Assembly: GCA_016879935.1 (NCBI GenBank)
Contig: JAACJQ010000388.1
Location: 1 to 41,177, forward strand
Origin: Archangiaceae bacterium
GTDB taxonomy: Bacteria; Myxococcota; Myxococcia; Myxococcales; Myxococcaceae
Direction of reading: 5' to 3'
Length of the DNA: 41,177 nucleotides
The notes beneath the pieces are model-generated. The model made no database searches. It was not told the DNA's origin and worked only from the letters and a program-made list of their open reading frames with translations. The position numbers and the translations under genes are program-made. This document shows positions 8,287 through 18,516 of the stretch, one piece after another. Numbering within the stretch: position 1 is the first letter of the stretch; each line of letters begins with the position of its first letter.

Positions 8287-9564
8287 TCAGCGCCGGCGAG
8301 TCAGCACCACCATGGCCACCACGAGGAGCACGCCGAGCTCGGAGGTCGCGCCGCAGCCGCAGCCGGGCGTCGGCGTCGAGGTGCAGCGACCCGACTCGCA
8401 CATTTGGCCCGAGACGCAGATGGCGCAGGCAGCGCCGTTTGCGCCGCACGCCATGTCCGACGACTGAACGCACACGGCGCCGTTGCAGCACCCTGTGCAG
8501 TTCGTCGCGTTGCACGTCGAGCTCGACGAGCCGCCACCGGTCGCTGGGCCTCCGCCCGTCGCGCCGCCTCCTCCTGATGCGGCGCCGCCTGCCGCTGCCG
8601 TGCCGCCTGCCGTCGCCGTTCCGCCTGCCGCTGCCGAGCCTCCTGCGGTTGCGGAGCCGCCAGCCGTCGCGTTCCCGCCGCCCGACGCTCGACCTCCCGC
8701 CGTCGCAGTGCCTCCGCCCGCTGCGCCGCCACCCATCGACCCGCCATCGGAGCTGCAGCCCAGCAACATCGTCACCTGGTCGATGGTGGTGCTCGCCACG
8801 TCGGCCGCGACCATCGACTCGACGCAACCGGCGCCGAGCAGAAACTGGCCGAAGAAGGCGCGGGCGTAGCGTTTGTAGACGGCCGACCGCGTCGAGCTCC
8901 ACGTCGCGGGCTGAATGAGCGAGGGCCCACAGCCCGCGAGACAGATCGTGTTCGACGGCTCCTGAGGGTCGCAGTGGTTGGCCATGGGCACGTTGAAGCG
9001 GCCCTTGAGCCCCGTCTTCCCCGTGAACCACGCCACGGAGTTGTTCTGCGTGTTGCACGACTGCGGCGGTGCGAACTCGAACAGCGTCGGCGCCGTCACG
9101 TTGGCGATCTGCGCCGAGCCGAGGCTGCTGCTGTCGACCGGGTCGAGCAGCACGAGCGCCTTCGTCTGCGGGCGACGGGACGCAGCGAGCCACGCCGCAA
9201 GGCCACCGGCGCTGTGCCCCCCAAACCCCACTCGCGTGGCGTCGCCGATTCCAGCGGTGATGGTGGCGTCGACGGCGGCGAGGAGTGCGTCGGCATTGGT
9301 GGAGTGGTTGACGCTGAGCCCACCCGTCAGCTGCGGCGCGACCACCACGATGCCATCGGCCTGCAGCGCCTGCGCGAGCCCTCGAACGTTGTCCTTGTTG
9401 TTCGAGAACCCGTGCCCCAGCGCCACGATGGGGAACGGGCCCGTGCCCGTCGGCGTGTAGCGATCGACCTGAAAGCTGGAGCCGTTCACCGTCACCGAGA
9501 ACGTCGTCTGCGCGTGTGCAACTGAAGCAACACCGATGAGCACCAGCAGGGAGCGGTTGAACAT
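8287..9564 (-). CDS. Secreted alpha/beta hydrolase with MYXO-CTERM surface-sorting tail
   Basis: This 425-residue protein begins with a signal peptide ending near AHAQ (residues 1-19). An alpha/beta hydrolase domain of the chlorophyllase/dienelactone-hydrolase type follows, with oxyanion motif GHG at 50-52 and nucleophile S118 in GHSAGG. After the domain come about 75 residues of Gly/Ala/Thr/Ser repeats (roughly 270-345), a Cys-rich knot, and a C-terminal GCGCGATSE motif followed by one hydrophobic helix and RRR. That last part is a textbook MYXO-CTERM tag, known to route proteins to the cell surface through the type II system with cleavage by a myxosortase. The start at 9564 gives the signal peptide. 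The gene is divergent from the gsp operon. An esterase or lipase activity is likely; the substrate is unknown. Confidence 0.88.
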   Translation of the reverse strand: MFNRSLLVLIGVASVAHAQTTFSVTVNGSSFQVDRYTPTGTGPFPIVALGHGFSNNKDNVRGLAQALQADGIVVVAPQLTGGLSVNHSTNADALLAAVDATITAGIGDATRVGFGGHSAGGLAAWLAASRRPQTKALVLLDPVDSSSLGSAQIANVTAPTLFEFAPPQSCNTQNNSVAWFTGKTGLKGRFNVPMANHCDPQEPSNTICLAGCGPSLIQPATWSSTRSAVYKRYARAFFGQFLLGAGCVESMVAADVASTTIDQVTMLLGCSSDGGSMGGGAAGGGTATAGGRASGGGNATAGGSATAGGSAAAGGTATAGGTAAAGGAASGGGGATGGGPATGGGSSSSTCNATNCTGCCNGAVCVQSSDMACGANGAACAICVSGQMCESGRCTSTPTPGCGCGATSELGVLLVVAMVVLTRRR

Positions 9565-9712
9565 GGTCGCCTCTCTGCCGACACCGACGCTCATTCGCAA
9601 GTCAGCCACGGTTCGCCGTTTGGTCGCTGGCCGAATGCGAGGCCCGACAGGATGTCACTCGCGCGGTCGCTCATCGCCTCGCAAGGCGGCGGAAGCTCGA
9701 ATGAGAGGCAGG

Positions 9713-9728
9713 TGGCACCAGCGTTGCT
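9713..9728 (+). promoter_or_regulatory. Sigma-54 (-24/-12) promoter of gspC1 and the gsp operon
   Basis: The sequence TGGCACCAGCGTTGCT matches the sigma-54 consensus TGGCAC-N5-TTGCW at every defined position, with GG at 9714-9715 and GC at 9726-9727 separated by exactly 10 bases. Transcription would start near 9739, only about 4 bases before the ATG at 9743, so the message would be nearly leaderless if that ATG is the true start. Only two exact matches of this kind were found by eye in the window, and the other sits at the start of the second gspC gene. Confidence 0.65.
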
Positions 9729-9742
9729 CGAGTGACCGCGTC

Positions 9743-10555
9743 ATGCGCCTCCGCACCAGTCTCTTTCTTCATGTGCTGCCCTGGGCCGTGCTCGCGCTCG
9801 CAGCGTGGCTGCTGGTGTCTCCCCTGGGCGTGCTGCTCGAAGACAGCCTCGCCCTGCCCTTCCACGAGCCAGCCTCCTCGCCACCTGCGGCCGTGCGTGA
9901 GCAGGCCACCCTCAGCGAACCTCGGGTGTACGCGCTGCTCGGCATGCCGCTCCCCCGGTCTGAGCAGCTCGTCTCGACGCCCCGCCCGCGGCCACCCTTT
10001 GGCGCGAAGCTGCTCGGAACGCTGTCGTCGTCGCTGCGGGAGCGCTCGGTCGCGACGTTGCTGCTGCCGACCGGCCGCGCTGTCTCGGTGTGGGAAGGCG
10101 ATCAGGTGCTCGACGCCCAGATCGTCGAGATCGCCCGCAATTCCATCACGCTTCGCCGTGAAGGCGTGTTGGAAGAATTGGCGATGCACCCGCCCGCCGC
10201 AATTCCTGCCATCGCCTTCGTGACACCAATCACTGCACAAGACTATGCCGTGTCGCGGATGGAGATCATGACCCGGCTCGGCGACCTGTATTCGCTCTCG
10301 AAAGACGTGCGGGTCATGCCGGCGTTCCGTGACGGCCAGCCCATCGGCTTCCGGTTCGCAGGGCTCTCGGCCGATTCGGCGGTCGCGAAGCTGGGGCTCA
10401 AGACGGGCGACGTGATCCGCTCCATCAACGGTCAGCCGCTCGATTCGATGCAGCGGGTGCTGGGCCTGGTGGGCGCCCTCGATCACACCCCCGAGGTCCT
10501 CGTTCAGGTCGAACGCGAAGGCCAGCTGCTCACCCACCGCTACCGCCTCAACTGA
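9743..10555 (+). CDS. gspC: GspC-like type II secretion inner-membrane protein, first copy
   Basis: This 270-residue protein has one N-terminal membrane helix (about 7-30), a short linker, an HR domain (about 85-150, GAKLLGTLSSS to the LRREGVLEEL strand) and a C-terminal PDZ domain (about 175-270, with IGFRFAGL, GDVIRSINGQPL and a final strand RYRLN). GspC links the inner-membrane platform to the secretin GspD through the HR domain. The frame is open from 9536, but the ATG at 9743 is preferred because it places the helix at the N-terminus and lies just after the sigma-54 element. The next gene is a second GspC-like protein of the same architecture. Which copy is the core subunit is not clear; this shorter copy is the more diverged by eye. 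Confidence 0.82.
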   Translation: MRLRTSLFLHVLPWAVLALAAWLLVSPLGVLLEDSLALPFHEPASSPPAAVREQATLSEPRVYALLGMPLPRSEQLVSTPRPRPPFGAKLLGTLSSSLRERSVATLLLPTGRAVSVWEGDQVLDAQIVEIARNSITLRREGVLEELAMHPPAAIPAIAFVTPITAQDYAVSRMEIMTRLGDLYSLSKDVRVMPAFRDGQPIGFRFAGLSADSAVAKLGLKTGDVIRSINGQPLDSMQRVLGLVGALDHTPEVLVQVEREGQLLTHRYRLN

Positions 10556-10669
10556 CCGCCCTTCCTGATCCAACCTGCCGTTCCGTCATGACGCCCTCCT
10601 TCGCTTTGACAAAATGGCAGAGAACCGCCCAGGACTGGGCCGATTCCCGAGTAATTTCAAGGCACTTGA

Positions 10670-10685
10670 TGGCACCGGGCTTGCT
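10670..10685 (+). promoter_or_regulatory. Sigma-54 (-24/-12) promoter at the second gspC
   Basis: The sequence TGGCACCGGGCTTGCT is a second exact match to TGGCAC-N5-TTGCW, with GG at 10671-10672 and GC at 10683-10684 at the required 10-base spacing. Transcription would start near 10696, just before the GTG at 10702. If the second gspC instead started at the ATG at 10669 or 10588, this element would lie inside the coding region. It mirrors the element in front of the first copy in sequence and in distance to the start codon (14-17 bases between the GC and the start codon). Confidence 0.55.
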
Positions 10686-10701
10686 CTTTGGCCCTCCTGC
10701 C

Positions 10702-11631
10702 GTGGAGTTCCTCTTCAAGCGACATTTCTGGCTGGTCCACCTCGCCTTCATGTTCGGGGTGGCCTTCTTCATCGGGAAGACGGCGAACGCCTTTCTCGAA
10801 GCCCAGCTGCTCCCGCTGCCGACTGGCGAGACGCGGCAGGTGCTCAAACCCCAGGTGGTCGAGCCGGTGCCGCAGCTGGTGCTCGACCGCATCGCCAAGC
10901 TCACGGGCCTGCCGGTGCCGAAGCCCGAGCCCGAGGTGAAGGAGCCGGAGGCGCCCAAGGTCGACATGGAGTCGCCGCCGATTCACTCGTCGCTGCGGCT
11001 CAAGCTGCTCGGCACGCTCGTCTCGGGCAACCCCGAGTGGTCGGTGGCGTCGATTCAAGACGTCGTCACGCTCAAGACCAACACGTACATGGTTGGCGAC
11101 ACCATTCAGGGCGCCGAGGTGCTCGAGATCGAGCGAAAACGCGTCATCATCAAACACAACAATCGCCGCGAGTACATCGACGAGAACCCGGGCGACGGGT
11201 CGATGGCCGCGCCGCCGCCGCCGGTACAGACGATCGCCGCCGCGCCGGCCAAGTACAACGACGCACCGCCGCCTTCGGTGGGCCTGGGCTCGACCATCAA
11301 GCAGATGAGCGAGAACGAGTACGAAGTGCCGCGCGCCGAGATCGACAAGACGCTCTCGAACCTCAACGACGTCGCCATGCAGGCCCGCATCGTGCCCGCG
11401 TTCAAAGATGGCGTCGCCCAGGGCTTCAAGCTGTTCTCGATTCGCCCCGACTCCATCTATTCGAAGATTGGCGTGCAGAACGGTGACGTCATCAAACGCA
11501 TCAATGGCTACGACCTGAACAGCCCTGAGAAGGCGCTCGAGGTCTACTCCAAGCTCAAAGAGGCTTCGCGCATCGACATCGAGGTCGAGCGCAATGGTGC
11601 CTCGGTTCGCAAGACCTACAACGTTCGCTGA
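10702..11631 (+). CDS. gspC: GspC type II secretion inner-membrane protein, second copy
   Basis: From the GTG at 10702 this is 309 residues: MEFLFKRHFW, a membrane helix (about 9-28), a Pro-rich linker, an HR domain (about 94-155, LRLKLLGTLVSG onward) and a C-terminal PDZ domain (about 207-309, with GFKLFSIRPDS and GDVIKRINGYDL). It is 147 bp from the first gspC copy and 12 bp from gspD. Alternative starts are the ATG at 10669, which has an AAGG six bases upstream, and the ATG at 10588. The GTG is favoured because the membrane anchor then follows directly and an exact sigma-54 element sits just before it. The role is secure: it connects the platform to GspD. Confidence 0.88.
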   Translation: MEFLFKRHFWLVHLAFMFGVAFFIGKTANAFLEAQLLPLPTGETRQVLKPQVVEPVPQLVLDRIAKLTGLPVPKPEPEVKEPEAPKVDMESPPIHSSLRLKLLGTLVSGNPEWSVASIQDVVTLKTNTYMVGDTIQGAEVLEIERKRVIIKHNNRREYIDENPGDGSMAAPPPPVQTIAAAPAKYNDAPPPSVGLGSTIKQMSENEYEVPRAEIDKTLSNLNDVAMQARIVPAFKDGVAQGFKLFSIRPDSIYSKIGVQNGDVIKRINGYDLNSPEKALEVYSKLKEASRIDIEVERNGASVRKTYNVR

Positions 11632-11643
11632 AACGACTTGAAC

Positions 11644-14055
11644 ATGAACACCCGCCTGTCCATCGGTCTCCTCTGCGCGCTCGTGCCGGCGTTCGCGCTC
11701 GCCCAGCAGCCCCCTGCCCCCAAAGCCGGAGCGCCCGCCGCCGCGGCAGCCGCTGCTCCCGGCGCCACCATCGCGCCCAAGAAGCCGAGCTGCGAAGAGT
11801 CGCGCCGCAAGGGCCGCTACAACATCTATTTCGACAAGGTCGAGATCGAGAAGCTGGTTCAAACCGTCTCTGACGTCACGTGCAAGACGTTCATCCTGCC
11901 CGAGAACATTCGCGGCAAGATCAGCATCATCGGCCCCGAGAACGGCAAGGTCGAGGTCGACGCCGACCAGTTCTACGCGGCGTTCCTCGCGGCCCTCGAT
12001 GCCAACAGCTTGTCTGTCTATTCGAACGGCAAGTTCATGAAGATCGTGGACAAGCAGCGGGCGAAGCAGTTCCCCATTCAGACCATCTTCGACCCGACAG
12101 AGCAGTACACGATGAACGAGCAGATGGTCACTCGCATGTTCAAGATCAAGAACGTCGAGATCGAGCAGCTGCGTGGCGTGTTGCAGCAATTGGTCACGCC
12201 GTCGGGCGACACCATTCCCTTCCAGCCCGACACCATCATCATCAACGACCTCGCGTCGAACATGCACCGCCTCGAGAGGCTGGTGGAGCAGCTCGACTCG
12301 CGCTCGGCGTCGGACGAGATGCGCGTGATTCAGGTTCAGTACGCGACCGCGCAGGAGATGGCCGACAAGATCACCAAGCTCTTCGAGGCGAAGGTGAACC
12401 GTCCGGGTCAGCGGCCGGGTGGCTTCATTCCGCCGCCTCCGCCGGGCGCCACGGCCGGCACGCCGGCTCCCGAGGCTGGCCCCGCCACGCTGACCCAGCT
12501 CATTCCCGACGAGCGCACCAACAAGCTCATCATCATCGCGAGCCCGGGCGCGATGGCCCGCGTCATGGCGCTCATCCGCGAGATCGACATTCCCATCTCG
12601 GGCGAAGGCCGCATCAACGTGCTCTACCTCGAGAACGCGAACGCCGAAGACGTCGCCTCGACGCTGCAGACGCTGGCGCAGGGCACCGCGAACCGCCCGA
12701 AGACGCCCACGCCGCCCCCGCCCGGTGGCCGGCCCACGACCGCCGCCGAGCTGTTCTCGGGCGAGGTGAAGGTCTCGGCCGACAAGTCGACCAACGCGCT
12801 CGTCATCATCGCCAGCCAGAACGACTACCGCTCGCTGCTGCGCGTGATCGAGAAGCTCGACATTCAGCGCCGCCAGGTCTTCGTCGAGGCGGTCATCATG
12901 GAGGTCAACCTCGATCGCAACTCCGACCTCGGCATCAACTTCCATGGTGGCGTGCCCCTGCCCTCGCAGGACGTGAGCCCGATCTTCTTCGGCACCAAGT
13001 ACTCGAGCCAGGGTCTGCCGCCCAGCCTCAGCCTTGCCAACCTCATCTCGTTGTCCGGCTTCCTCGGAGGCATTCAGAGCTCGCAGACCATCAACATCGC
13101 CGGCCTGACGATTCCCAACTTCGGGCTCGTCATCAATGCGTTGCAGAAGTCGAGCGACGTGAACGTGTTGTCGACGCCGCACATTCTCACCACCGACAAC
13201 GAAGAGGCCGAGATCACGGTCGGCCAGAACGTGCCGTTCCAGTCGGGCTTCTCGGCGGGTGGTCTGGGTGGGCTCGGCGGTCTGGCGGGGCTCGGTGGCG
13301 CGTCGAGTCAGCTCGGCGGCCTCGGTGCGCTCGGCTCGCTCGGTGGTCTCGGCGGCGGCGTGTTCGGCCAGATTCAGCGGCAGAACGTCGACCTCAAGCT
13401 GTCCATCAAGCCGCAGATCAACGAGTCCGATTACGTGCGGCTCGTCATCAACGAGCAGATCGAAGAGATCGCCTCGTCAGACCCGGTGCTCGGCCCCACC
13501 ACCTCGAAGCGCAGCGCGAAGACGACCGTCATCGCGAAGGACCAGGAGACCATCGTCATCGGCGGCATCATGCAGGACCGCCTCGTGGAGTCGGTCTCGA
13601 AGACGCCGCTCCTCGGCGACATTCCACTGCTGGGCAACCTGTTCCGTCAGCAGTCGCGTCGCAAGGTGAAGACCAACCTGCTGCTCTTCCTCACGCCGTA
13701 CATCATTCGTGACGCGGGTGACTTCCGCCGCATCTTCGAGCGGAAGATCAAGGAGCGTCAGCAGTTCGTCGAACAGTTCTACGGCGCCAGCACCACGTAC
13801 GACGTCGCCATCGACTTCAACCGCAAGCCCGGCCCGCTCGCGCGCATGACGCAATTGCTGAACAAGGAACTGAACCGCATCGAGAACGGCGGCCCCGGGC
13901 TTCCAGGCGAGAAGGTGATCGCGCCCGCTCCCGAAGCCAAGCCCGCAGAGTCGAAGCCTGCCACGCCCGTCGTCGAGCCGTCTGGCGCGACGCCGCCGGT
14001 GCCGGTGAAGGAGCCGAGCCCCGAGCAGCTGAAGGTGCAGCCGGAGATTCAGTGA
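11644..14055 (+). CDS. gspD: Type II secretion outer-membrane secretin GspD
   Basis: This 803-residue secretin has a signal peptide (1-20, ending FALAQ) and an Ala/Pro-rich spacer. The N0 domain (about 57-140, NIYFDKVEIEKLV) is followed by N1 to N3 repeats (about 150-400). The secretin core (about 420-710) carries the conserved VGQNVPFQSG and PLLGDIPLLGNLFR motifs. A Gly/Leu-rich stretch at about 535-577 is inserted right after VPFQSG in the gate region, far richer in GLGGLGG units than usual. The C-terminal 50 residues are Pro/Glu-rich. It forms the outer-membrane channel. The ATG at 11644 is preferred over a TTG at 11638. It lies between gspC and gspE. Confidence 0.97.
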   Translation: MNTRLSIGLLCALVPAFALAQQPPAPKAGAPAAAAAAAPGATIAPKKPSCEESRRKGRYNIYFDKVEIEKLVQTVSDVTCKTFILPENIRGKISIIGPENGKVEVDADQFYAAFLAALDANSLSVYSNGKFMKIVDKQRAKQFPIQTIFDPTEQYTMNEQMVTRMFKIKNVEIEQLRGVLQQLVTPSGDTIPFQPDTIIINDLASNMHRLERLVEQLDSRSASDEMRVIQVQYATAQEMADKITKLFEAKVNRPGQRPGGFIPPPPPGATAGTPAPEAGPATLTQLIPDERTNKLIIIASPGAMARVMALIREIDIPISGEGRINVLYLENANAEDVASTLQTLAQGTANRPKTPTPPPPGGRPTTAAELFSGEVKVSADKSTNALVIIASQNDYRSLLRVIEKLDIQRRQVFVEAVIMEVNLDRNSDLGINFHGGVPLPSQDVSPIFFGTKYSSQGLPPSLSLANLISLSGFLGGIQSSQTINIAGLTIPNFGLVINALQKSSDVNVLSTPHILTTDNEEAEITVGQNVPFQSGFSAGGLGGLGGLAGLGGASSQLGGLGALGSLGGLGGGVFGQIQRQNVDLKLSIKPQINESDYVRLVINEQIEEIASSDPVLGPTTSKRSAKTTVIAKDQETIVIGGIMQDRLVESVSKTPLLGDIPLLGNLFRQQSRRKVKTNLLLFLTPYIIRDAGDFRRIFERKIKERQQFVEQFYGASTTYDVAIDFNRKPGPLARMTQLLNKELNRIENGGPGLPGEKVIAPAPEAKPAESKPATPVVEPSGATPPVPVKEPSPEQLKVQPEIQ

Positions 14056-15851: not shown

Positions 15852-17114
15852 ATGCCCGTCTTCGAATACAGAGGCCTCGCGGCCAACGGGAAGACCGTCA
15901 CGGCGCTCAAGGAGGCAGACTCTCCGAAGGCGCTGCGGGCTGCACTGCGCAAAGAGGGCGTGTTCCTCACCGAGGTGGTCGGCGAAGCCGAGGCCGGCCT
16001 CAAGGGAGCGAAAGGCGCGAAGGCCGCTGCGTCGCAAGCGCTCTCGACCGACATCAACCTGCGCCGGCTCGCGCGTGGCCGCGTCAACACCGACGACATC
16101 GCCATCATGACCCGCCAGCTCGCCACGCTGCTCGGCGCCGGCGTCACGCTCGTCGAAGCGCTCGCGGCGATGGTCGATCAGGTCGAGAAGGAACAGCTCA
16201 AGCGCATTCTCTCCGACGTGAAGCAGAAGGTGAACGAGGGCAACTCGCTCGCCGACGCGTTGAGCGCGCACGGCAAGGTGTTCGGCAATCTGTTCATCAA
16301 CATGATTCGCGCCGGTGAGTCGTCGGGCGCGCTCGACTCGGTGTTGTTGCGCCTCGCCGAGTTCACCGAGGGCCAAGCCCGCCTGCGGCAGAAGATCGTC
16401 GGCACCATGATCTACCCGCTCATCATGATGGTGGTGGGCGGCGGCGTGCTCGTGATGCTGATGACCGTCGTCGTGCCGAAGGTGACGAAGATCTTCGACG
16501 ACATGAAGGTCACCCTGCCGTGGACGACGCGGCTGCTCATCTGGTCGTCGAACTTCCTGCAGGACTGGTGGTTCGTGCTGGTGCCGCTGATGATCGCGAC
16601 CGCCATCTTCCTCTTCCAGTGGACGCGCAGCGCGAAGGGCAAGCCCATCTGGGACAAGTTCGTGCTCAAGATTCCCGTCTTCGGGCCGCTCGTGCGAATG
16701 CTGTCGGTCGCCCGCTTCTCTCGAACGCTCGCCACGCTGCTCAAGTCTGGCGTGCCCCTGCTCACCGCGATGGAGATCGTGAAGAACGTCGTCACCAACA
16801 CGGTGATGAGCGACGTCGTCGACAAGGCGCGTGACTCGATTCGTGAAGGCGAGAGCATCGCCAACCCGCTCAAGCGGTCGGGCGAGTTCCCTCCGCTCGT
16901 GTACCACATGGTGTCGATCGGCGAGCGCTCGGGCCAGCTCGAAGACATGCTGCTCAACGTCGCCGACAGCTACGAGTCGCAGGTGAACGTGCGCATCGGC
17001 GCGCTGACGTCGCTGCTCGAGCCGATGATGATCGTGAGCATGGGCGCGGTCATCGCGTTCGTGGCCTTCTCGATTCTCATGCCCATTCTTCAGATGAATT
17101 CGATGGTCCGGTGA
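15852..17114 (+). CDS. gspF: Type II secretion inner-membrane platform protein GspF
   Basis: This 420-residue polytopic protein has two copies of the T2SS-F helical domain: the first begins RQLATLLGAGVTLVEALAAM (about 81-100), the second FSRTLATLLKSGVPLLTAME (about 291-310). Three membrane segments lie at about 183-207, 235-257 and 392-415. GspF is the platform protein that GspE acts on. The N-terminal segment (MPVFEYRGLAANGKTV) is the usual GspF opening. It starts 6 bp after gspE and is followed by a small membrane-protein gene rather than directly by gspG. Confidence 0.96.
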   Translation: MPVFEYRGLAANGKTVTALKEADSPKALRAALRKEGVFLTEVVGEAEAGLKGAKGAKAAASQALSTDINLRRLARGRVNTDDIAIMTRQLATLLGAGVTLVEALAAMVDQVEKEQLKRILSDVKQKVNEGNSLADALSAHGKVFGNLFINMIRAGESSGALDSVLLRLAEFTEGQARLRQKIVGTMIYPLIMMVVGGGVLVMLMTVVVPKVTKIFDDMKVTLPWTTRLLIWSSNFLQDWWFVLVPLMIATAIFLFQWTRSAKGKPIWDKFVLKIPVFGPLVRMLSVARFSRTLATLLKSGVPLLTAMEIVKNVVTNTVMSDVVDKARDSIREGESIANPLKRSGEFPPLVYHMVSIGERSGQLEDMLLNVADSYESQVNVRIGALTSLLEPMMIVSMGAVIAFVAFSILMPILQMNSMVR

Positions 17115-17129
17115 GGTGTTGGAGTGAAC

Positions 17130-17255
17130 GTGAACTCGAACGCAATGACTGACACCCGCCCGCCTTCAGAGAAGTGGCTCTGGCGGCTGGTGACGGCCGG
17201 CCTCGTGGGACTCGCCGTCGGCCTCGTGGCCGTCGGCCTCAACCTGTACGTGTGA
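17130..17255 (+). CDS. 41-codon single-helix microprotein between gspF and gspG
   Basis: This short frame encodes a polar N-terminus (about 15 residues, T-D-T-R-P-P-S-E-K) and one hydrophobic helix (about 18-40, rich in Leu, Val, Gly and Ala) ending Asn-Leu-Tyr-Val at the stop. The GTG at 17130 has GGAG at 17121-17124, five bases upstream. The ATG at 17145 would give 36 residues. It fills most of the 154-bp gap between gspF and gspG, with 13 bp left before gspG. Near-exclusive G/C third positions match neighbouring genes. No prepilin cleavage motif is present. It resembles in size and layout the second small gene after gspG. No family is recognised; it may be an accessory T2SS membrane subunit. 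Confidence 0.6.
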   Translation: MNSNAMTDTRPPSEKWLWRLVTAGLVGLAVGLVAVGLNLYV

Positions 17256-17268
17256 AAGGAAACACCGC

Positions 17269-17685
17269 ATGCTCCGCTCTGCCCTGACCCGTCGCCGCCG
17301 CGCTCGCGGCATGACGCTCATCGAGATCATCGTCGTCATCACCATTCTCTCGCTGCTGATGGCCGCCGTCGGCGTCGCCGTCATTCCCCAGCTGGAGCAG
17401 GCGAAGGTCGACCGCGCCAAGATGGACATTGGCAACATTCAGAACGCGCTGAAGACGTACTACGCGAAGAAGGGCAACTACCCCGACACGGGCCTGGGCC
17501 TCAAAGCGCTGGTCGATGCACAGATTCTCGAGCGCGTGCCGGTCGACCCCTGGGAGACCGAGTACGTGTACATGAAAGAGGGCTCGACGCCCGTCATCAT
17601 CTCGTACGGCAAGGACAAGGCGCCGGGCGGGGCCGAGACCGACGCCGACATCTCGTCGAAGGATCTCGGCGGCAAGAAGCAGTGA
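17269..17685 (+). CDS. gspG: Major pseudopilin GspG
   Basis: This 138-residue major pseudopilin has a basic leader MLRSALTRRRRARG, cleaved by prepilin peptidase after Gly14, giving a mature protein that begins MTLIE with the conserved Glu at +5. The hydrophobic N-terminal helix is followed by the typical GspG globular domain with GNYPDTGLGLKALV and a C-terminal calcium-site-like loop region (DPWETEYVYMKEG). It builds the pseudopilus piston. The ATG at 17269 has a strong AAAGGAAA sequence upstream. It is flanked on both sides by 41-codon membrane-protein genes, an unusual position. Confidence 0.97.
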   Translation: MLRSALTRRRRARGMTLIEIIVVITILSLLMAAVGVAVIPQLEQAKVDRAKMDIGNIQNALKTYYAKKGNYPDTGLGLKALVDAQILERVPVDPWETEYVYMKEGSTPVIISYGKDKAPGGAETDADISSKDLGGKKQ

Positions 17686-17692
17686 GCCACCC

Positions 17693-17818
17693 ATGACCTC
17701 CGACCCGCGCGACCGCGACGACAAGACGACCGGGCTCTCACCTGCGGCCATCGCCGTGGGCGTGGGCGCTGCGGCGCTCGTCTGGCTCGCGCTCGACGTG
17801 CTCAAGAGGATCATGTGA
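17693..17818 (+). CDS. 41-codon single-helix microprotein between gspG and gspH
   Basis: This short frame starts at the ATG at 17693, 7 bp after the gspG stop, and its TGA overlaps the gspH ATG as TGATG, so gspH translation is probably coupled to it. The product has a charged N-terminus (S-D-P-R-D-R-D-D-K-T-T), one hydrophobic helix (about 16-36, Ala/Val/Leu/Gly with one Trp) and a basic tail (L-K-R-I-M). Length is identical to the small gene before gspG (41 residues), but there is no clear sequence identity. No Shine-Dalgarno is obvious, consistent with coupling to gspG. No known family is recognised. Confidence 0.65.
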   Translation: MTSDPRDRDDKTTGLSPAAIAVGVGAAALVWLALDVLKRIM

Positions 17819-18516
17819 TGAAAGCCCGCGCCCGCAGAGGCATCACGCTCATCGAGCTGGTCGTCGCCCTCGGCATCGTCGTGGTGCTGTTCGCTGCCGT
17901 CGTGTTCGGCGTCGGCGCGCTCACGGGCGCAAAGGCCAAGGAGTCGAGCGCCGAGCTCGCGGGCACCATTCGGTCGCTCTACGACTCCGCCGCCCTCTCG
18001 GGGAAGACGTGCCGTCTCGTGTTCGAGCTGCCCGGCAAGGGCGCCGAAGACGACGAGGTGAAGTACCACGCCGAGTGCGCCAAGGCGGGTGTGACGGCCG
18101 GCGCGAACCGTGAAGACGAACAGCGCGAGGCCGACAAGAAAGACAAGAAGCGCAAGAGCGACGAAAGCGACACGCGCTTCCGCTCGCTCTCGGGTGACAA
18201 CAACGGCCCGAACCTGCAGGAACTGATGGCGCGCGAGAAGAACCGCGTCGAAGAGAGCGCGAAATTCTCGACGTTCTCGTCAGAAGACATCGTCGAGCGC
18301 TCGTTGCCCAGCGGCGTCGAGGTCGAGGTGTGGACCTCGAAGCTCAAGACGCCCGTGAAGTCTGGCGTCGCGTATCTGTATTTCTTTCCCCAGGGGTTCA
18401 CCGAGCGCGCGCAGATCTACGTGCGCCAGGGCAAGAACGTGTGGACCATCACCGTCTCACCGCTCACCGGGAAGACCGTGATTCACGCCGACGCGCTGGA
18501 GCTCCCCCGCACATGA
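17818..18516 (+). CDS. gspH: Minor pseudopilin GspH
   Basis: This 232-residue minor pseudopilin has leader MKARARRG cleaved after Gly8, then ITLIE with Glu at +5 and a long hydrophobic helix. The C-terminal globular part has beta-strand character. It is longer than the usual roughly 170 residues because of a highly charged insert (about 95-130, Lys/Asp/Glu-rich, DKKDKKRKSDESD) that looks disordered. Identification as GspH rests on order and the N-terminal helix; sequence outside the helix is weakly conserved in the family. It starts in a TGATG overlap with the preceding microprotein and ends in an ATGA overlap with gspI. Confidence 0.88.
   Translation: MKARARRGITLIELVVALGIVVVLFAAVVFGVGALTGAKAKESSAELAGTIRSLYDSAALSGKTCRLVFELPGKGAEDDEVKYHAECAKAGVTAGANREDEQREADKKDKKRKSDESDTRFRSLSGDNNGPNLQELMAREKNRVEESAKFSTFSSEDIVERSLPSGVEVEVWTSKLKTPVKSGVAYLYFFPQGFTERAQIYVRQGKNVWTITVSPLTGKTVIHADALELPRT

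Follow-up and report, generated by a model that had tools for sequence, protein, structure and literature searches.

A single-helix microprotein encoded behind gspF is a candidate accessory subunit of the type II secretion platform in Myxococcia

Does the type II secretion system (T2SS) of myxobacteria contain small membrane subunits that the standard parts list lacks? The question is raised by the window, the whole stretch of 41,177 nucleotides from an Archangiaceae bacterium analysed here, in which a T2SS operon carries two short open reading frames on either side of gspG. The operon comprises two GspC-like genes, gspD (start at 11638), gspE (start at 14052), gspF, ORF1, gspG, ORF2, gspH, more pseudopilin genes, gspL, and gspM. 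On the + strand, gspF (15852..17114; Pfam T2SSF 2.6e-66) encodes the inner-membrane assembly platform, gspG (17269..17685; Pfam T2SSG 1.5e-20; NCBIfam TIGR01710) the major pseudopilin, and gspH (17818..18516; N_methyl match, NCBIfam GspH/XpsH below cut-off) a minor pseudopilin. ORF1 (17124..17255, +) lies between gspF and gspG, and ORF2 (17693..17818, +) between gspG and gspH. Separately, the GspC-like genes at the operon head are arranged in tandem (9536-10555 and 10588-11631); both match T2SSC and PDZ, in some cases below cut-off.

An earlier note on this DNA, made from the sequence alone, had proposed that the two frames are matched single-helix genes of identical length, 41 residues. The frames and their signals are where it placed them. 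A Shine-Dalgarno sequence, GAGGTG (17113..17118, +), is read directly in the sequence, overlaps the gspF stop codon (17112-17114), and stands 5 nt before GTG 17124; the TGAGGTG site of which it is part is also present in most congeners and in Myxococcus xanthus. ORF2 follows the stop codon of gspG at a distance of 7 nt and ends in a TGA that overlaps the ATG of gspH (TGATG, 17816-17820). The equal length did not hold up. In an alignment with six congeneric genomes, the homologous ORF1 start codon matches GTG 17124 rather than GTG 17130, which would give 41 aa; a third possible start, ATG 17145, would give 36 aa. Because congener starts align to GTG 17124 and GAGGTG sits just upstream of it, ORF1 most likely starts there and has 43 aa, as judged by this alignment, and the shared length is a coincidence of start-codon choice. 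Within the family, ORF1 lengths lie between 30 and about 86 aa, some relatives having a longer tail. The ORF1 product from GTG 17124 is VNVNSNAMTDTRPPSEKWLWRLVTAGLVGLAVGLVAVGLNLYV, and that of ORF2 (41 aa) is MTSDPRDRDDKTTGLSPAAIAVGVGAAALVWLALDVLKRIM.

Both frames evolve as coding sequence. Across seven genomes of the genus, dN/dS in the sense frame was 0.34 for ORF1 and 0.38 for ORF2, with 0.21 for gspG; values well below 1 are what the proposed check of the short frames had looked for. Most alternative frames gave dN/dS above 1, and one antisense frame of each gene fell below it (0.47 for ORF1, 0.68 for ORF2), an echo of codon position 3 that was to be expected. Variation was concentrated at that position: variable columns at codon positions 1/2/3 numbered 22/11/33 in ORF1 and 18/16/29 in ORF2 (Fisher test of position 3 against position 2, p=4e-6 and p=0.0065, respectively). 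Amino-acid changes numbered 90 in ORF1 against 130 in a column-shuffled null (0 of 2000 shuffles) and 94 against 126 in ORF2 (1 of 2000), and the shuffling usually created stops in the frames. No broken ORF1 frame was found in the 70 read among 71 loci. By sequence comparison, ORF1 and ORF2 are thus under purifying selection, and the dN/dS, codon-position and shuffling tests rule out chance frames. ORF1 is almost certainly a real protein-coding gene, and ORF2 very likely one.

The tight spacing also invites the idea that the frames are leader or relay elements that serve mainly translational coupling, with peptides of little function: the ORF1 Shine-Dalgarno sequence overlaps the gspF stop, and ORF2 fills the space from just behind gspG into gspH. 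However, selection acts on the amino-acid sequence, motifs are kept across genera and families, and in M. xanthus a gap of about 60 nt separates the end of ORF1 from gspG, so that coupling is not conserved. We regard this idea as very improbable.

Neither product resembles a known family. Searches gave no credible Pfam, NCBIfam or PDB family match for ORF1 or ORF2, and neither microprotein was reported in the open-access literature searched, where a search for ribosome profiling of M. xanthus likewise gave nothing of use. As the earlier note had held, they are not standard T2SS parts: the standard list (GspC to GspO, plus GspA, B, N and S) contains nothing like them (PMC10128026). Several identities were tried and rejected. 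Against phage holin superfamily III (PF16083), the score was 15.7 bits with a cut-off of 28.4, and 1 of 28 ORF1 members matched; hits to other Pfam families were likewise below threshold and confined to single members. A pseudopilin identity (GspG/H/I/J/K) fails on the lack of any N_methyl or IV_pilin match and the absence of a prepilin peptidase motif from both alignments. Neither ORF1, ORF2 nor the ORF1 family matched T2SSC, GspL or T2SSM above cut-off, which rejects GspC, GspL and GspM. Mutual duplication is ruled out by an hhalign probability of 0.8%. With this, a differing age and distribution, and equal length under only one choice of start, the matched pair proposed in the earlier note dissolves into two separate genes. 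Each is single-copy in its own genome: the ORF1 profile has one match (E 2e-15, the next at 0.1) and the ORF2 profile one (E 3e-19), with no paralogue of either.

Each product has a polar N-terminus and a single strongly hydrophobic stretch. AlphaFold2, run with homologue alignments, predicted one confident helix apiece (core pLDDT 94-97), spanning residues 15-42 of ORF1 (17166..17249, +) and 17-40 of ORF2 (17741..17812, +); both are therefore proteins of fewer than about 60 residues with exactly one predicted transmembrane helix. In 27 of 28 ORF1 proteins, lysine and arginine are more numerous in the N flank of the helix than in the C flank, and by the positive-inside rule ORF1 is therefore predicted to be bitopic, N-in/C-out. 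The ORF2 C-terminus carries arginine, and the topology of ORF2 is ambiguous. Conserved residues of ORF1 are D/E16, W18 and R21 in a short N-cap and L34, G38 and Y42 in the helix. The conserved residues tilt toward one face of the helix, a trend that is not significant (p=0.07) and makes a conserved face only suggestive. Myxococcus ORF1 has a C-terminal tail that the short forms of the window's genus lack, which leaves the helix and N-cap as the retained core. ORF2 carries the conserved motif GLSPxxIAxxLGxSAxVWLxxDxLRRxL.

ORF1 is old and firmly tied to gspF. This gspF is present in 94 of the 96 family genomes, and in 93 of those 94 ORF1 lies directly behind it, a stable linkage to the operon of its putative partner that ORF2 shares in 18 genomes. 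The sole exception (G013) lies inside the clade that has both frames; there the gspF stop runs into the gspG ribosome site. In this genome the stretch running from the stop codon of gspF to that of ORF1 is cleanly deleted, and the place of ORF2 holds a non-hydrophobic frame, so that both are lost. Stops or frameshifts in close relatives, which the earlier note had named as grounds for dropping the idea, were not found; this one close relative has instead lost both frames outright.

Beyond the family, a one-helix protein occupies the gspF-gspG slot in four families of the same order (f6, f7, f8, f9) and one of the same class (f10). Aligned jointly, these slot proteins match the ORF1 profile (95% probability, E=3.4e-8), and 8 of 11 divergent slot proteins individually beat all 200 shuffles that preserve helix and flank composition. 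The slot is empty in Anaeromyxobacteraceae (f3) and in families f2 and f4, and ORF1 was found neither in the Myxococcota of other classes that were examined nor in Bdellovibrionales. ORF1 must be dispensable for T2SS in general, since it is absent from Anaeromyxobacteraceae, two more families of the order, and the other classes examined. This distribution is best explained if the ancestor of Myxococcia had ORF1 and it was then lost on one or a few occasions. By contrast in age, ORF2 is younger and clade-specific, occurring in its 18 genomes across 8 genera that form one clade, one side of the GspF tree.

Other contents of the spacer were seen as well. The one genome of family f5 has a 92-aa frame in the gspF-gspG slot that is apparently unrelated to ORF1. 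In four loci of family f13, from another class of the phylum (L203, L204, L212, L213), the spacer encodes a protein of roughly 180-215 aa that by eye resembles signal peptidase II (LspA). A 767-kb record titled 'Comamonas sp. KCTC 72670' (BNCN01000003.1; L124) carries a Myxococcus-type T2SS locus whose gspF is 69% identical to that of the window, and is probably a mislabelled genome.

This distribution bears on a further possibility, that the place of ORF1 and ORF2 in the operon serves co-regulation alone and that they work at some other site in the membrane, perhaps as small peptides of stress response or regulation. Many small membrane proteins that have been characterised are indeed regulators (PMC11539335). 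Yet ORF1 has kept its place behind gspF and ahead of gspG throughout the class, and the genomes searched showed it nowhere else; we consider this possibility improbable.

The slot between gspG and gspH has a different occupant in other genera. Of the 71 loci, 43 (from Myxococcus, Corallococcus, Pyxidicoccus, Hyalangium and others) encode in this gap a protein of 143-167 residues, which has an ordinary transmembrane helix and, behind it, a T2SSG domain (M. xanthus protein, L131:6952-7398: Pfam E 7e-16). The NCBIfam GspG model scores it below cut-off and matches only from about residue 48, and the prepilin motif is absent from it. By these sequence features the protein is a GspG paralogue that is no longer pilin-like; it looks like a pseudopilin turned anchored accessory protein. 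It resembles ORF2 in operon slot and in having one helix, but differs in its T2SSG globular domain, its length and its clade, and the two helices are not visibly related (a comparison by eye only). Its clade is separate from that of ORF2 on the GspF tree, and none of the 71 loci has both. The GspG row of M. xanthus in the accompanying alignment (L131:6485-6908) is shifted by one base, and no conclusion here draws on it.

Published work on M. xanthus places ORF1 in a transcriptional context. There, the T2SS unit 'MXAN2511', which comprises ten genes and is switched on within the first hour of starvation, has been assigned three half-sites for Nla28 and a putative sigma54 promoter of the form GGGCGCG-N4-TTGCA (PMC9765219). 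We found exact matches to these elements in the M. xanthus AM003 locus, within the 3' end of gspF: the half-sites at L131:6071-6175 and the promoter at L131:6185-6200, about 72 nt before the start codon of ORF1 (L131:6272-6421). As the promoter lies inside gspF and upstream of ORF1, ORF1 is therefore the first frame of the developmentally induced M. xanthus T2SS transcript. A count of ten genes is reached with ORF1, gspG, the GspG-like gene, and gspH, I, J, K, L, M and N. Because MXAN2514 is GspD (PMC3222651) and the count fits, MXAN2511 is probably M. xanthus ORF1 itself, which would then already have an annotation, and MXAN2510 is probably gspG. The remark in the earlier note that such frames are too short for most gene callers is thus plausible in general but may not apply to this species. 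An insertion in MXAN2510 impairs swarming and viable sporulation (PMC9765219). The phenotype says that the T2SS unit matters and, given possible polarity, does not single out the responsible gene.

The same promoter supplies an argument for supposing that conservation reflects DNA- or RNA-level signals, such as an internal promoter or spacer structure, with the frames as mere by-products. The sigma54 promoter and Nla28 sites stand just upstream of ORF1, and its -12 element consists of rare codons, ATT GCA, that every one of the 43 loci in the clade having the GspG-like gene retains, against a codon-usage expectation of about 0.35% per locus, although these loci are related and so not independent. 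But these elements are part of gspF, before ORF1 begins, and the window genome has not conserved them: its equivalent site (about 17042-17058) has the -24 GG and a weaker -12, TCGCG. Within ORF1 and ORF2 it is the third codon position of the sense frame that substitutions track, and the ORF1 protein profile extends to other families. We find this explanation barely credible.

What, then, does ORF1 do? On balance it is probably an accessory subunit of the T2SS inner-membrane (GspF) platform, comparable to CydX, KdpF or AcrZ. This reading follows from a conserved bare helix, its linkage to gspF across the class, and a ribosome site set in the gspF stop. For both proteins we infer membrane location, topology, partner and effect. 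Translated from the site that overlaps the gspF stop, ORF1 would insert with a short cytoplasmic N-terminus, bearing the conserved D/E-x-W-x-x-R motif, and a periplasmic C-terminus. Its helix would most likely pack on the GspF platform, or on the pseudopilin helices that GspF feeds, and would stabilise or tune assembly, as CydX, KdpF and AcrZ adjust far larger partners. The C-terminus of GspF faces the periplasm, which makes a read-through GspF-ORF1 fusion unsuitable as a proxy for docking. ORF2, the younger clade-specific helix made between gspG and gspH, would probably act at the same platform/pseudopilus interface.

The main alternative to the GspF platform is binding to GspG or to GspL/GspM. 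As a dedicated partner or chaperone of GspG, ORF1 would use its helix to shield or present the GspG N-terminal helix before extraction into the pseudopilus. Such a role would suit the position of ORF1 immediately 5' of gspG in the family, its place at the head of a developmental M. xanthus transcript that runs from gspG to gspN and excludes gspF, and the GspG-related protein in the adjacent G-H slot of other genera. It sits poorly with the ribosome site of ORF1, which in both the window and M. xanthus shares bases with the stop codon of gspF, and with a distance to gspG that widens to about 60 nt in Myxococcus. Lineages without ORF1, moreover, have GspG with an ordinary prepilin N-terminus at the same position. 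We judge a dedicated GspG partner unlikely. For ORF1, its place in the operon, its topology and its phylogeny tip the balance only modestly from the pseudopilin toward the platform.

The view set out in the earlier note, of accessory subunits acting on the major pseudopilin or the GspF platform, therefore stands in kind, as genuine small membrane-protein genes in a T2SS operon, and falls in its details of a pair of equal length. A broader formulation is that the T2SS of Myxococcia has an undescribed single-helix platform subunit, ORF1, together with an 'accessory socket' between gspG and gspH that is filled by ORF2 or by a non-pilin GspG paralogue; we advance it tentatively, with slightly less than even confidence. 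Lineage-specific microprotein subunits in a T2SS, and a platform role for ORF1 if true, would be new. A secretion machine whose parts are supposedly fully listed would gain a widely retained inner-membrane component in a whole class, one that includes the predatory, fruiting-body-forming myxobacteria, and the myxobacterial machine would be built differently from the textbook gspC-O system. ORF1 would then give genetics a small entry point to the working of GspF, which a recent proposal models as a trimeric ion channel (PMC10790770). If true, the locus would also show how an ancient complex comes to incorporate for good both lineage-specific microproteins and a paralogue of pilin origin. ORF1 and ORF2 also flag genes that automated annotation can miss.

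Among the parts of the T2SS itself, GspC and GspM are bitopic proteins with N-in/C-out topology. ORF1 shares this predicted topology with them, as well as its location in the operon. Unlike GspC, GspL, GspM and GspN, ORF1 and ORF2 have no periplasmic or cytoplasmic domain and no family match, and in the window operon GspC (twice), GspL and GspM are already present besides them. With the pseudopilins GspG and GspH, whose genes adjoin theirs, they share a hydrophobic helix preceded by a short N-terminus on the cytoplasmic side, but they lack the prepilin cleavage/methylation motif and the globular domain. The closer likeness is to small partners of other membrane complexes. KdpF is encoded in its partner's operon. 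So is the 37-aa CydX, a conserved one-helix partner of a membrane complex (PMC4325964), and AcrZ is another conserved one-helix partner of this sort (PMC7267776). Like these three, ORF1 and ORF2 are proteins of about 30-50 residues with one helix and few invariant residues; unlike them, they would have a secretion platform as the putative partner, and they share no demonstrated sequence relation with the group.
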